Positions 49,606-61,644 of a DNA stretch of 64,000 nucleotides are shown one piece after another. Each line of letters begins with the position of its first letter. Position 1 is the first letter of the stretch. Source of the stretch: Acidobacteriota bacterium. Its GTDB lineage: Bacteria > Acidobacteriota > Holophagae > Holophagales > Holophagaceae. Location of the stretch: the NCBI GenBank assembly GCA_016195985.1, contig JACPYP010000031.1:1-64000 (forward strand). Reading direction: 5' to 3'. The notes beneath the pieces are model-generated. The model worked only from the letters and a program-made list of their open reading frames with translations. It was not told the origin of the DNA and ran no database searches. A program made the translations under genes and the position numbers.

Positions 49606-50112
49606 ATGGAGGTTCCGATGCTCCCACTGTCCCAGACCACGGGCTATGCAGTGCGAGCTCTGCGCTGCCTCCAGGAGCCTGGGGGCCATCCAGTCCTGGT
49701 GGAGGAGGTGGCTGAGTACACGGGCATCCCCCGCTCGTACTTGTCGAAGCTCATCCACAAGCTGGCCAAGAAGGGCCTGGTGGTGGCCCGCCGCGGCCAC
49801 CACGGCGGGGTGGTGCTGGCGCGCCCCTCCACGGAGATCACGCTGGAGGATCTGTCCGAGGCCATCGATGGCGTGGCCTGGCGCAAGCGCTGCCTCATGG
49901 GCCTGCTGGGGTGCACGGACCTCACGCCCTGCGTGCTGCATGATTTCTGGCACGAGACCCTGGATCAGATCCTGGCGCGCCTGCGCTCAGTGTCGCTGGC
50001 AGATCTGGCGCAGAACCCGGACCCCGGGGTGGAGCGTTTCCGGGCGGATCACGGACTGCAGAACCGCCCTGACCCGGTGGTGGAGGAACACCTGCCTGCC
50101 GGGGTGCATTGA
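49606..50112 (+). CDS. Rrf2 family regulator
   Basis: LSQTTGYAVRALRCLQEPGGHPVLVEEVAEYTGIPRSYLSKLIHKLAKKGL; CLMGLLGCTDLTPC. Confidence 0.9.
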   Translation: MEVPMLPLSQTTGYAVRALRCLQEPGGHPVLVEEVAEYTGIPRSYLSKLIHKLAKKGLVVARRGHHGGVVLARPSTEITLEDLSEAIDGVAWRKRCLMGLLGCTDLTPCVLHDFWHETLDQILARLRSVSLADLAQNPDPGVERFRADHGLQNRPDPVVEEHLPAGVH

Positions 50113-50199: not shown

Positions 50200-50748
50200 T
50201 TAAAGCGGTTTCTTGATCGGGGCCCTCTTGGGGGCGGCGGGCTTCTTGGCGGCGGGTTTGGCGGCCTTCTTGGCCCGGGGTTTGACCTTCCGCTCGGGAA
50301 GAGCATCGGCCAGGCGCCAGGTGCGGCTGTTCTGCTCGAAGGTGCGGATCTCTTCCAGGGAGATGTCCTTCAGGCAGCGGTAGATGTGGTCGCGCTCGGC
50401 CTTCCAGAAGGTGTGCGACGGGCAGGCGCGCTCGTCGGAGCAATCCTTGAAGCCGAGCAGGCACTGGTTGCGCCATTCAGAGCCATCCACGGCCTCGGCG
50501 ATGAGGTCGAGGGTGATCTCTTTGGCGGCCAAGGCCAACACCACGCCGCCCTTGTTGCCGCGCTTCGCCATGACCAGGCCCACCTTCGCGAGCTTGTGGA
50601 TCATCTTGGAGAGGTAGGGCCTGGGGAAGCCAGTGCGCGCCGCCACATCGACCACGAGCGTGGGCTTGCCGCCCGGGTCTTCGAGGCAGCTCATGGCCAG
50701 AACCGCGTAACCGGAGGACTGGGACAAGGGAAGCATGGTCACCTGCAC
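50200..50748 (-). CDS. Rrf2 family regulator with Lys/Ala/Pro-rich C-terminal tail
   Basis: LSQSSGYAVLAMSCLEDPGGKPTLVVDVAARTGFPRPYLSKMIHKLAKVGL; tail KVKPRAKKAAKPAAKKPAAPKRAPIKKPL. Confidence 0.9.
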   Translation of the reverse strand: MQVTMLPLSQSSGYAVLAMSCLEDPGGKPTLVVDVAARTGFPRPYLSKMIHKLAKVGLVMAKRGNKGGVVLALAAKEITLDLIAEAVDGSEWRNQCLLGFKDCSDERACPSHTFWKAERDHIYRCLKDISLEEIRTFEQNSRTWRLADALPERKVKPRAKKAAKPAAKKPAAPKRAPIKKPL

Positions 50749-50879: not shown

Positions 50880-51872
50880 TCAGGGCTTCCATCCGTTGAG
50901 GATTCGCATGTAGTTGGCGCGGGTGAAGGCCTGGGGATTGGGGGACTTCAGCAGGCTCATGCTGCCCTTGGCCTGGGCCAGGGATTCGTACTCATGCTCT
51001 TCCAGCCACTGGCTGAGGGTATCGAGGGTCTGCGCCAGGCGCTCGGGGCCGTGGATGAGCAGGGCCGAAACCATCTGCACCGCGTCTGCGCCAGCCATGA
51101 TGGCCTTGAGGGCGCCGAAGCCGTCATGCACCCCGCCGGTGACGGCAAGGCTGCCCTTGACGTGGCCGTGCAGCACCGCCAGCCAGCGCAGCCGGAGGAG
51201 GAGGTCCGCGGGGCTGGACAGCTGCAGGCTGGGTTCGGCCAGCAGCTCTTCCACGTTGATGTCAGGCTGGAAGAACCGGTTGAAGAGCACCAGGCCATCG
51301 GCGCCCGCCGCTTCCAGCTCCACGGCGAAATGTGCCAGGGCGGAGAAGAAGGGCGAGAGTTTCACGGCGACGGGGATCTTCACCTCGGACTTCACGGCCC
51401 TCACGATGTCGAGGGTGCGCTTCTCCACGTCGGCGGCGGTTTCCTTCGCGTCCGTGGGGATGTAGTAGACGTTCAGCTCCAGGGCGTCGGCGCCGGCCTC
51501 TTCCATGAGCTTGCCGTGGTGCAGCCAGCCCGCGGGCGTGGTGCCGTTGAGCGAGGCGATGACGGGAACGTCCACGGCGGCCTTGATGCGGCGGATCTGT
51601 TCCAGGTACTTCTCGGGGCCCAGGCGGAATTCATCGGGCGCGGGAAAGTAGGAGAGGGCCTCGGCGCTGGTGTTGGAGGACAGCGCCATGTCCATGATGG
51701 TGCCTTCCTCTTCGCGGGTGATCTGCTCCTCGAAGAGGCTGTGCATCACGATGGCCGAGGCGCCCGCGTCTTCCAGGCGCTTCACCATGCCCATGTCATC
51801 GACCATGGGGGAGGCGCCCGCCATCAGAGGGTGCTTGAGCTTGAGGCCGAGGTAGGTGGTTGAGAGTCTCAT
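50880..51872 (-). CDS. Dihydroorotate dehydrogenase-like protein
   Basis: TTYLGLKLKHPLMAGASPMVD; LELNVYYIPTD; VAVKLSPFFSALAH. Confidence 0.88.
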   Translation of the reverse strand: MRLSTTYLGLKLKHPLMAGASPMVDDMGMVKRLEDAGASAIVMHSLFEEQITREEEGTIMDMALSSNTSAEALSYFPAPDEFRLGPEKYLEQIRRIKAAVDVPVIASLNGTTPAGWLHHGKLMEEAGADALELNVYYIPTDAKETAADVEKRTLDIVRAVKSEVKIPVAVKLSPFFSALAHFAVELEAAGADGLVLFNRFFQPDINVEELLAEPSLQLSSPADLLLRLRWLAVLHGHVKGSLAVTGGVHDGFGALKAIMAGADAVQMVSALLIHGPERLAQTLDTLSQWLEEHEYESLAQAKGSMSLLKSPNPQAFTRANYMRILNGWKP

Positions 51873-51888
51873 GTCGTCACCTTCACCT

Positions 51889-55443
<3,555 letters not shown>

Positions 55444-55531
55444 GGTTCACTCCTTCCGGGAATCCTCGGGACCTTGCCGGCGATGGGCATCAGGGCAGGA
55501 AACACGTCAATACATGATACGGGATGGTCCG

Positions 55532-55548
55532 GTCACTTTCGTCACAAG
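55532..55548. promoter_or_regulatory. Crp-like site GTCA-N6-TCACAAG
   Basis: gtcactttcgtcacaag upstream of nifJ. Confidence 0.35.
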
Positions 55549-55560
55549 GGGGGTCAGTGG

Positions 55561-58332
55561 TCAGACCGCAGGCTGGGGGGTCTCCACCAGGCGCTGGTGG
55601 ATGGCCGCGGCGGCCCGGCGGCCCTGGCCCATGGCCAAAATGACCGTGGCGCCGCCGGTGATGACATCGCCTCCGGCAAAAACGCCCGGGATGGACGTCT
55701 CGCCCGTGTCGTTGTCCACCACAACAACCCCGCCCTTGAGGGTCTTCAGGCCCTTGTCGGTCATGGCGATGAGGGGGTTCACGTCGAAGCCCAGGGCCAC
55801 CACCAGGGTGTCGCAGGGGATCATGATCCGCTCGTCGGTCATCTTGGGGCTGCGGCGGCCGTCGGGTCCGGGCTCGCCCAGTTCCATGACGGCGCACTCG
55901 GCGTGGGTCATCCAGCCTTTGTCGTTGCCGTGCAGCTGCACTGGGGTGCAGAGGAACTTGAATTCCACGCCTTCCTCGTGAGCGTGCTCCAGTTCCTCCT
56001 TGCGGGCGGTGGATTCCTTGATGGTGCGGCGGTAGACCACGGTCACATGCTCGGCGCCCATGCGGCGGGCGGCGCGGGCCGCGTCCATGGCCGTGTTGCC
56101 CGCGCCCACGATGACGACGTGCTTGCCGACGGTTACCGGGGTGCCGTAGGCGGGAAACAGATCGGCGCGCATGAGGTTGATGCGGGTGAGGAATTCGTTG
56201 GCGGTGTAGACGCCCTTGTACTCCTCGCCGGGAATGCCCATCATCTTGGGCAGGCCGGCCCCGGTGCCCATGAAGATGGCGTCATTGTCCTTGCGGAGGT
56301 CCTCCAGCGTCATGCTGCGGCCCACGAGGGTGTTCATGACGAAGGTGACGCCCAGGCCGCGCAGGGTGGAGACTTCCTGGTCCACGATGGCATTGGGCAG
56401 GCGGAACTCGGGGATGCCGTAGAGCATCACGCCGCCAGGTTTGTGGAAGGCGTCGTAGACCGTGACCTGATGGCCCTTCTTCACCAGCTCGCCCGCCACG
56501 GTGAGGCCCGCGGGGCCGGCGCCGATGACGGCCACCTTCTTGCCCGTGGGCGGCTCCACCGGAGGCAGCTCGTCGGAGCCGAGCATCGAGTCGCTGGCGA
56601 AGCGCTCCAGGCGGCCGATGGACACGGGCAGGCCCTTGATGCCCACCACGCACTTGATCTCGCACTGCTTCTCCTGGGGGCAGACGCGGCCGCAGACCGA
56701 GCCCAGGGAGGAGCTTTCCTTGATGATGCGGGCCGCGGCCTTGGGATCGCCGTTGACGATCTGCTGCAGGAAGGCCGGGATGTTGATGCTCACGGGGCAG
56801 CCTTCGATACAGGCGGGGTGCTTGCACATGATGCAGCGGGCCGCTTCCAGCTTGGCCTGCTCGGGGGACAGGCCCAGGCTCACCTCGTCGAAGTTGCACA
56901 CGCGCAATTCCGGCGGCTGGCAGGCCATCTCTTGGCGGGGGATCTTCATCTTCTGGCTGGGCTTGATGGAGCCCAGGTCGAGGTTCTGCCAATCCAGTTC
57001 TGTGACAGGCTCGTTCAGGTACTGGGAGTAGTCCACAGGGCCCGTGGCGGCCACGCGGCCGATCTTGCACTCGTGGGGGTCGCACTGCTCTTCCGCTTTG
57101 TACCAGTCGGAGCGCATGCGCAGCATGTTGAAGTCCACCTGGTGGCCGTCGAAGTCGGGGCCGTCGAAGCACGCGAACTTGGTCTGGCCGCCCACGGTGA
57201 CGCGGCAGCCGCCGCACATGCCGGTGCCGTCCACCATCAGCGCGTTGAGGCTCACCAGGGTGAAGATGCCGTGGGGCTTCGTCAGGTCCGAGACGGCGCG
57301 CATCATGGGCAGCGGGCCCACAGCCACCACCTCGGCGACTTTCTCGCGGGCGATGATGTCCTTGAGGGCGTCGGTCACCAGGCCCTTGCGGCCCAAGGTG
57401 CCGTCGTCGGTGGTGATGATGAGTTCGGCAGAGGCGGCGCCCAGCTCCTCGGCCAGCAGCACGCGCTCCTTGCTCCGTCCGCCCAGGATGGTGATGACGC
57501 GGCGGCCCTTGGCGTGCAGCTCCTCGGCGGCGGGCAGGATGGCGGCACTGCCGTAGCCGCCCGCCATCAGCACGATGGTGCCCTCTTCCGCCAATTCCGT
57601 GGGGGTGCCCATGGGACCGGCCACGGCGTAGAGGCGGTCGCCGGCGCTGAGCTTGCCCATGGCCTTCGTGGTGGCGCCCACCTCCTGCATGATGAAGTGG
57701 ATGTAGCCCTTGCGCGCGTCGCCGCCCGCCAGCGTGAGGGGGATGCGCTCGCTCTCGGGGAAGGGGGCCACCATGAAGAACTGGCCCGGCTTGCGTCCGC
57801 GGGCCACCTGGGGCGCCTGCACGATGAAGGACCAGGTTTCCGGGGCGATGAGTTTCTTCTCCAGGATGAGGTAGCCGTCCTGGGTTTCGGCGTCGGAGCA
57901 GTAGAGCGACCGGCCCTTGAGCAGGGGCAGCATGAGTTCTTCTTCGGCCTCGATGTGGTCGCGGATCAGGTCCACCAGGCGCTGGCCAAGCAGCGTGAGG
58001 GAGCGCGGGGCGCGGACGGAGCCTTCGGTGATCTCCGCGAGCAGCTGCAAGGTGAGGTCCCACATCTGGCGGTGGTCCTCATGCAGGCGCTGGTGGAGGG
58101 CTTCGGCGCCGATCTCCTCCAGCAGCGGGAACAGCTCCCGCTCTTCGGCCTCGTTGTGGGGCCGCAGCACCTCGTAGATCCACTTGGCGCCCAGATCCAC
58201 GCCCTTCCAGTCACCGGCGCCGAGGGCCTCGGCCATCCGCGTCAGCCGCCCCTGGGCTTCCTCGTGCGTGGCATGCCAATTGGGCGCGGGCAGATTGCCG
58301 GAGCTGATCAGCTGAGTGATCGAATCGGACAT
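55561..58332 (-). CDS. Hemerythrin + NfnA/SudB-like FNR + GltD/SudA-like fusion
   Basis: N-term WHATHEE...RPHNEAEERELFPLL...LHEDHRQM...DHIEAEEELMLPLL; middle GTGMCGGCRVTVGGQTKFACFDGPDFDGH; C-term CIMCKHPACIEGCPVSINIP...VAVIGAGPAGLTVAGEL. Confidence 0.9.
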   Translation of the reverse strand: MSDSITQLISSGNLPAPNWHATHEEAQGRLTRMAEALGAGDWKGVDLGAKWIYEVLRPHNEAEERELFPLLEEIGAEALHQRLHEDHRQMWDLTLQLLAEITEGSVRAPRSLTLLGQRLVDLIRDHIEAEEELMLPLLKGRSLYCSDAETQDGYLILEKKLIAPETWSFIVQAPQVARGRKPGQFFMVAPFPESERIPLTLAGGDARKGYIHFIMQEVGATTKAMGKLSAGDRLYAVAGPMGTPTELAEEGTIVLMAGGYGSAAILPAAEELHAKGRRVITILGGRSKERVLLAEELGAASAELIITTDDGTLGRKGLVTDALKDIIAREKVAEVVAVGPLPMMRAVSDLTKPHGIFTLVSLNALMVDGTGMCGGCRVTVGGQTKFACFDGPDFDGHQVDFNMLRMRSDWYKAEEQCDPHECKIGRVAATGPVDYSQYLNEPVTELDWQNLDLGSIKPSQKMKIPRQEMACQPPELRVCNFDEVSLGLSPEQAKLEAARCIMCKHPACIEGCPVSINIPAFLQQIVNGDPKAAARIIKESSSLGSVCGRVCPQEKQCEIKCVVGIKGLPVSIGRLERFASDSMLGSDELPPVEPPTGKKVAVIGAGPAGLTVAGELVKKGHQVTVYDAFHKPGGVMLYGIPEFRLPNAIVDQEVSTLRGLGVTFVMNTLVGRSMTLEDLRKDNDAIFMGTGAGLPKMMGIPGEEYKGVYTANEFLTRINLMRADLFPAYGTPVTVGKHVVIVGAGNTAMDAARAARRMGAEHVTVVYRRTIKESTARKEELEHAHEEGVEFKFLCTPVQLHGNDKGWMTHAECAVMELGEPGPDGRRSPKMTDERIMIPCDTLVVALGFDVNPLIAMTDKGLKTLKGGVVVVDNDTGETSIPGVFAGGDVITGGATVILAMGQGRRAAAAIHQRLVETPQPAV

Positions 58333-58407
58333 GGATGCCTCCAGATCCGTTCAGCATGATCTGGAGATGGCCTGAATCCTTTGTCTAAAAACCTAAATGG
58401 GGCCAGT

Positions 58408-58474: not shown

Positions 58475-61084
<2,610 letters not shown>

Positions 61085-61146: not shown

Positions 61147-61644
61147 GTGCCCCGGATCCCGGGCTGCGGTAGGGTGAAGGTATCCGGAGAACGCCGCTTG
61201 GAACTGATCGAGGAATTCCTGCCCTACGCCCAGAGCTGCCTCCGCCATCCCTCGGAGCGGGCGCGCCTGGCGGCCATCCTCGCCCATTGGGCCTCGAAGT
61301 GGAAGGGCAAGCACCGTCTCTTCGACTATTCCCGCAGCCACCATGGCGCCTACCTCCATTTCAACCAGCTCATGGATGGGAAATGGGTGCAGGCGTTCAC
61401 CTTCGTGGCCACCAAGCGGGAAGGGGTGTGCCTGCGGGGCCCCGATCCGGATCGCGCCCGGAAATCCCACAAATTCCGTCACAACCCCCTGGACGCCGCG
61501 CCCCTGGATGCCCTCTTCGAGGCCTGGTCGGCGCATCCCGAACACCGCCCCAGCGGCCACGCCGTGGAGTTCTTCCTGGAAGAGACCCCCGACGACACCT
61601 GGACCGCCTGCCTGCAGGAAGCCCTGACCCATCTGGGTGCCTGA
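61147..61644 (+). CDS. Hypothetical protein
   Basis: ~150 aa ORF; alternative GTG start at 61174. Confidence 0.55.
   Translation: MPRIPGCGRVKVSGERRLELIEEFLPYAQSCLRHPSERARLAAILAHWASKWKGKHRLFDYSRSHHGAYLHFNQLMDGKWVQAFTFVATKREGVCLRGPDPDRARKSHKFRHNPLDAAPLDALFEAWSAHPEHRPSGHAVEFFLEETPDDTWTACLQEALTHLGA

Follow-up and report, generated by a model that had tools for sequence, protein, structure and literature searches.

The genome of an Acidobacteriota bacterium of the Holophagaceae encodes a single polypeptide in which a hemerythrin (HHE) domain is joined to both parts of Nfn, the electron-bifurcating transhydrogenase that connects NADH, NADPH and ferredoxin. The same fusion recurs in other genomes of the genus and in further genera of the family. 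As a tentative explanation, and the best of those that we have weighed, we propose that the di-iron domain serves as an electron sink: supplied by Nfn, it would clear O2, peroxide or NO from around iron-sulfur enzymes.

A hemerythrin-Nfn fusion gene

The gene lies at 55561..58332 on the minus strand of the window, by which we mean the whole 64,000-nucleotide stretch of contig JACPYP010000031.1 that was analysed; it runs from an ATG at 58332 to a stop codon ending at 55561 and encodes 923 amino acids. A GGAGG ribosome-binding-like site (58338..58342, minus strand) lies 5 bases upstream of this ATG, so translation plausibly begins ahead of the hemerythrin part, and since there is no ATG from codon 134 to codon 187, the linker offers no such start from which an Nfn lacking the hemerythrin (Hr) domain could be made. 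Pfam matches, all above cut-off, place Hemerythrin at residues 18-138, DHODB_Fe-S_bind at 364-400, Fer4_20 at 478-583 and Pyr_redox_2 at 598-904, and together with the matches to solved Nfn structures described below they bear out the three-module order hemerythrin-NfnA-NfnB that a first-pass annotation had proposed. A scan for promoters and terminators returned nothing exceeding chance. The opposite strand carries a 991-aa open reading frame (55384-58359, plus strand), which we take to be a high-GC mirror frame; the homologs belong to the minus-strand protein.

The objection that the annotation itself had raised was that a sequencing error might have joined the frame. The architecture was therefore sought in other genomes, and it recurs: the frame is whole or nearly so, with no stop and at 89-96% identity, in 38 genomes of the genus (this one included), several of which are in one or two contigs, and it is unbroken in several further genera. 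This recurrence across genus and family refutes a sequencing-error join, and fusion of two genes by any error of sequencing or assembly is exceedingly improbable. Nothing was found in its favour, and the draft genome G051 shows the opposite, the same gene with the same order (L039:2142-4824, minus strand) but with its frame interrupted where NfnA gives way to NfnB, at about residues 431-443. In the first search for relatives most other genomes of the genus were cut at contig ends, and the incomplete genome G046 shows no Hr-Nfn.

The Nfn modules

The NfnA/SudB-like module spans residues 154-420 (57073..57873, minus strand), with an ERxPxT motif at 195-200 and [2Fe-2S] ligands D368, C373, C376 and C388, the last of which is followed by F, not V. 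The NfnB/SudA-like module spans residues 466-916 (55585..56937, minus strand) and contains the [4Fe-4S] ligands C500, C503, C508, C512, C551, C557, C561 and E576 together with FAD and NADP(H) domains. By sequence, the first module matches 5jca_S over residues 155-416 (E=1.8e-75) and the second 4ylf_B over residues 466-916 (E=1.8e-144), and a fold search with the full model ranks the large subunits 5jca_L, 5jfc_L and 4ylf_B first. The cofactor motifs that we inspected were taken from a review (PMC6405883). Of the 41 sequences aligned, 40 or all 41 retain each of their ligands and E576, which lines up with P. furiosus E126, the residue that provides the proximal cluster with its Glu ligand (PMC9503767). 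The candidate phosphate-binding residues R768, R769 and R777 are likewise conserved and line up with the P. furiosus NfnL sequence. Because all of the inspected ligands are conserved, the chain looks like a complete bifurcating Nfn. It is also the sole NfnA-like match in its genome, and this, the conserved ligands and the agreement with NfnI/NfnAB in sequence and fold all favour the proposal that Nfn feeds the attached domain.

The union of NfnA and NfnB in one frame had been presented by the first-pass annotation as a departure from the normal two subunits. The union is real, but it is no novelty: single-frame NfnA-NfnB has been described as Pattern B (PMC6405883), and the fusion without an Hr domain is general in Bacteroidales.

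The hemerythrin domain

The Hr domain occupies residues 18-138 (57919..58281, minus strand) and passes the PF01814 gathering cut-off of 25.3 bits both in the whole protein (44.6 bits) and alone (49.3 bits). It is followed by a linker (residues 139-153; 57874..57918, minus strand), of which residues 142-151 are of low confidence in the predicted structure. The strings HNEAE, HEDHRQM and HIEAEEE that had been read as hemerythrin motifs are present at residues 59, 84 and 126, and conservation of the metal ligands is upheld, although the ligand set needs correcting. Six putative di-iron ligands, H23, H59, E63, H87, H126 and E130, show no variation among the 40 sequences that have and cover the domain, a set that counts near-copies (39 sequences for H23); just one of the two His residues of HEDHRQM is kept, H87 being conserved and H84 variable. 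An invariant W91 stands at the position of the second His of HxxxH, and helix 4 reads HxxxEE. The pattern H23-H59/E63-H87-H126/E130 is thus H-HxxxE-H-HxxxE and not the canonical O2-binding one, and HHE proteins with these ligands either act on NO, nitrite, O2 or peroxide or donate iron. A canonical O2-carrier hemerythrin is ruled out by the ligand set together with the score against the bacteriohemerythrin model NF033749 (14.2 bits, cut-off 84). The RIC models are likewise missed (TIGR03652, 13.4 vs 204.7 bits; PRK10992, 14.7 vs 254 bits), and since both sets of cut-offs are missed we regard this as a generic HHE domain.

An AlphaFold2 model of the domain (pLDDT 82.7) consists of four long helices, and its ligands point the way that their positions in the helices predict. 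In a fold search of the PDB with this model no structure reached E <= 0.001, and 3cax came closest (E=0.079, TM 0.70); the weak matches include DcrH-Hr (prob 0.96-0.97) and YtfE (7bhb, prob 0.66), and because all are weak this support reaches the bundle topology only. Comparison of the domain by sequence with solved structures gave no hemerythrin match.

Pairwise dN/dS in 30 congeneric comparisons is about 0.13 for the Hr domain, 0.11 for NfnA and 0.10 for NfnB. By these rates the domain is under purifying selection, and the closeness of its rate to those of the Nfn modules indicates that it is maintained, not decaying; together with the invariant ligands, this is in keeping with an electron sink. 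It has to be asked whether the domain could be a structural or stabilising appendage, a helix bundle that helps the fused Nfn to fold or oligomerise and whose metal site is structural only. It is indeed a terminal helical bundle, and NfnA-NfnB fusions exist without it in Bacteroidales and Holophagales, so it appears dispensable to the core. The six ligands nonetheless remain invariant while the rest of the Hr sequence diverges to 50-56% identity between genera, and we consider an appendage of this sort decidedly improbable.

Distribution and origin of the fusion

Beyond the genus, Hr-Nfn is present at about 69-82% identity in other genera of the family (G049, G050, G053, G055, G056 and G059), and the named Holophagaceae assemblies L047-L050 and L052 also carry it. 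A profile of Hr plus NfnA matches 156 of 396 Acidobacteriota genomes; among the matches listed, coverage of the Hr part is limited to the family of the window (Holophagaceae-like genomes), and the others start at query residue 134 at the earliest. A profile of Hr alone behaves similarly, with strong matches limited to the family; next in line are the family's cupin-HHE proteins and, in other genomes, short HHE proteins that stand alone. Among the best 80 relatives listed, the Hr extension occurs nowhere outside Holophagaceae-type genomes, and a plasmid collection contained no Hr-Nfn. Three candidate carriers suggested by an early tblastn start (L063, L066 and L070) proved to be without the Hr domain.

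In a tree of the Nfn part, the sampled Hr-less member of the family (L038, G047) lies outside the Hr-bearing group (support 93/84) with one change, indicating either a single gain or a single loss of Hr. Within the family, the Hr domain is most closely related to proteins of ~270 aa with a C-terminal HHE domain (L137:3420-4232, plus strand; L138:3355-4179, minus strand), with a weakly cupin-like N-terminal part in L137. These proteins are a possible source of the fused domain.

A parallel arrangement is seen in other Acidobacteriota families (G127, G235, G389 and G282), in which NfnA-NfnB is followed by a C-terminal rubredoxin-like stretch and a rubrerythrin-type domain (L158:1-2757, plus strand; L169:820-3825, L170:776-3772 and L171:901-4110, minus strand). 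These fusions resemble NCBIfam NF009413/PRK12775, yet score under its cut-off. In G142 the rubrerythrin-type protein is encoded apart, by an ORF of its own (L164:2359-3018, plus strand) adjoining the Nfn gene. Because the rubrerythrin fusions use the opposite end of Nfn and a different fold, they are independent of Hr-Nfn. Di-iron domains have joined Nfn at least twice, which suggests that a di-iron domain joined to Nfn is a useful arrangement and counts in favour of the electron sink.

Gene neighbourhood and genome context

Downstream of Hr-Nfn by 117 bases is a nifJ-like gene for pyruvate:ferredoxin (flavodoxin) oxidoreductase (PFOR; 51889..55443, minus strand; TIGR02176, 1792.6 bits), followed after 16 bases by a gene for a dihydroorotate dehydrogenase (DHOD)-like protein (50880..51872, minus strand; PRK07565, 436.5 bits, cut-off 303). 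Beside this cluster are two paralogous, divergent Rrf2-family regulators (49606-50112, plus strand; 50200-50748, minus strand), conserved genus-wide. Directly upstream of Hr-Nfn is a gene for a hybrid histidine kinase (CHASE-PAS-HisKA-HATPase-receiver; 58475-61084, minus strand), which is conserved in the genus and faster evolving (65-89% identity), and then one for a 165-aa protein (61147-61644, plus strand), also genus-conserved and with no Pfam or NCBIfam match. The gene order around Hr-Nfn is kept in the five loci of the genus whose flanks are long enough to show it, and in G049 nifJ, the DHOD-like gene and Hr-Nfn are adjacent but rearranged. PFOR is a likely functional partner of Hr-Nfn, and its conserved proximity argues for an electron sink; set against this, PFOR does not adjoin Hr-Nfn in G050 or G053, and the linkage is not seen in G055.

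This neighbourhood bears also on a rather different role, in which the domain would behave as a YtfE/RIC-like protein and supply iron to the clusters of Nfn (and PFOR), or mend them, when they have suffered oxidative or nitrosative damage. There are three Fe-S clusters in the Nfn part and PFOR is next door, and the nearby Rrf2-family regulators have similarity, below threshold, to IscR and NsrR. RIC proteins carry a ScdA_N domain, however, for which the fused protein has no match, Hr beginning at residue 18, and the Hr domain scores far under the RIC models. The ligand pattern is identical to that of YtfE (H84, H129/E133, H160 and H204/E208 in that protein; PMC9268430), but the C. jejuni hemerythrin HerA prevents damage rather than repairing it (PMC4257069), and we think it unlikely that repair is the function of the fusion.

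The genome itself (G000) is hemerythrin-rich, with 14 PF01814 matches in 4.26 Mb. It has a cytochrome bd oxidase and four matches to the heme-copper oxidase superfamily, to which NO reductases also belong. Hr-Nfn genomes have 3-5 heme-copper superfamily genes, whereas two family members with an Hr-less NfnAB (G047 and G057) have none and 0-1 hemerythrins, with cytochrome bd kept. The correlation is what would be expected of an electron sink, but it is a single evolutionary contrast.

A proposed function for the fused domain

In the mechanism that we favour, the NfnAB part would perform the usual electron-bifurcating transhydrogenase reaction, and the ferredoxin that it uses would come reduced from the neighbouring PFOR. 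Less certainly, the di-iron domain may draw electrons off the high-potential NfnA branch (a-FAD/[2Fe-2S]). The reduced domain would then reduce O2, H2O2 or NO, with Nfn as its built-in reductase, and would thereby shield the Fe-S clusters of both Nfn and its partner, which are labile to O2 and NO, during oxic or nitrosative transients. The di-iron potentials of YtfE are +110 and +260 mV, and its physiological reductant is thought to be ferredoxin (PMC9052748); with the NfnA [2Fe-2S] potential at about +80 mV (PMC6405883), the transfer would, by analogy, be downhill. There is precedent for such protection in C. jejuni, where HerA and HerB shield Por/Oor from oxygen damage (PMC4257069). The proposal has to accommodate an Hr-NfnA linker of low predicted confidence, ligands that differ from those of proven O2-binding hemerythrins, and the diversity of HHE activities.

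The first-pass annotation had spoken of an O2/NO sensor or scavenger, and on the sequence a role of that kind is plausible. Sensing is the chief rival to the electron sink: oxidation or ligation of the di-iron site would shift the conformation of the N-terminal domain and throttle or uncouple Nfn, keeping the use of NADPH and ferredoxin in step with oxygen. The Hr domain is terminal, sits behind the low-confidence linker and has invariant ligands, and the multidomain hemerythrins DcrH, Bhr-DGC and Bhr-HD-GYP are redox switches of the attached enzyme, not acting via ligand binding (PMC9388753). Those sensors, however, have the canonical ligand set, which the Hr domain does not, and their partners are signalling output domains; Nfn, by contrast, is an enzyme of metabolism and can itself provide electrons. 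We judge sensing to be somewhat unlikely. We also think it rather doubtful that the protein is a self-sufficient bifurcating enzyme with Hr as a fourth redox outlet, a built-in terminal acceptor on the high-potential branch. In that case O2, NO or nitrite would take the place of NAD+ in accepting electrons exergonically; oxidising NADPH while reducing O2 or NO could then drive ferredoxin reduction, or bifurcation could be uncoupled on purpose under oxic exposure.

The covalent fusion names a candidate reductase for HHE di-iron proteins such as YtfE, for which ferredoxin has been suspected (PMC9052748), and the question of the reductant for HHE proteins becomes testable in one purified protein. 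It also raises the question of how Nfn, an enzyme of anaerobes with oxygen-labile Fe-S clusters, is run in a lineage with heme-copper-superfamily oxidases. Within one phylum, separate families have di-iron domains of different folds at opposite ends of Nfn, and this suggests that selection has coupled low-potential electron exchange to O2/peroxide/NO chemistry.

Comparison with known systems

The protein shares with NfnAB/NfnSL (SudBA; T. maritima 4ylf, P. furiosus NfnI 5jca) both modules and all inspected ligands, including the [2Fe-2S] Asp and the proximal-[4Fe-4S] Glu, but it is one chain rather than two and has the additional N-terminal hemerythrin domain. The Pattern B proteins (PRK12778/NF009414) of Clostridium, Bacteroidales and Fusobacteria have the same NfnA-then-NfnB frame without the extra Hr, and the window protein falls below their cut-off (942.3 bits vs 1103). 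It falls further below that of the Nfn-ferritin trifunctional protein (PRK12775/NF009413; 764.8 vs 1895 bits), whose C-terminal domain it lacks. The Nfn-rubrerythrin proteins of the same phylum resemble it in having a di-iron-type domain on NfnA-NfnB, but theirs has a rubrerythrin/ferritin-like fold with a rubredoxin-like stretch and is C-terminal.

Among hemerythrin-like proteins, YtfE/RIC has the H-HxxxE-H-HxxxE pattern that is found in the Hr domain, which differs in being without ScdA_N, in scoring far under the family cut-offs and in being fused to an oxidoreductase. Bacteriohemerythrins and the sensors DcrH and Bhr-DGC have in common with it PF01814, a four-helix bundle and modular use in multidomain proteins; of the canonical O2-binding set, H-HxxxE-HxxxH-HxxxxD (PMC9388753), the Hr domain lacks the second His of HxxxH (W91 instead) and the Asp of HxxxxD. 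HerA and HerB of C. jejuni are also hemerythrins that protect Fe-S enzymes, the counterpart in the window being the neighbouring PFOR, but they are stand-alone proteins with no fused electron-supplying enzyme. The FDPF of Trichomonas, a flavodiiron-rubredoxin-NADH:rubredoxin oxidoreductase fusion, is a self-sufficient O2 reductase (PMC9364112) and similarly carries a di-iron domain and the NAD(P)H reductase for it on a single chain, although its domains are unrelated and it is without electron bifurcation. In the literature searched there is no description of a hemerythrin-Nfn fusion; among the papers listed, one (PMC5640608) names both, but apart. Neither half of the protein is new in itself, and di-iron domains on Nfn are familiar in principle; on that literature, what seems new is the placing of a hemerythrin domain on Nfn.
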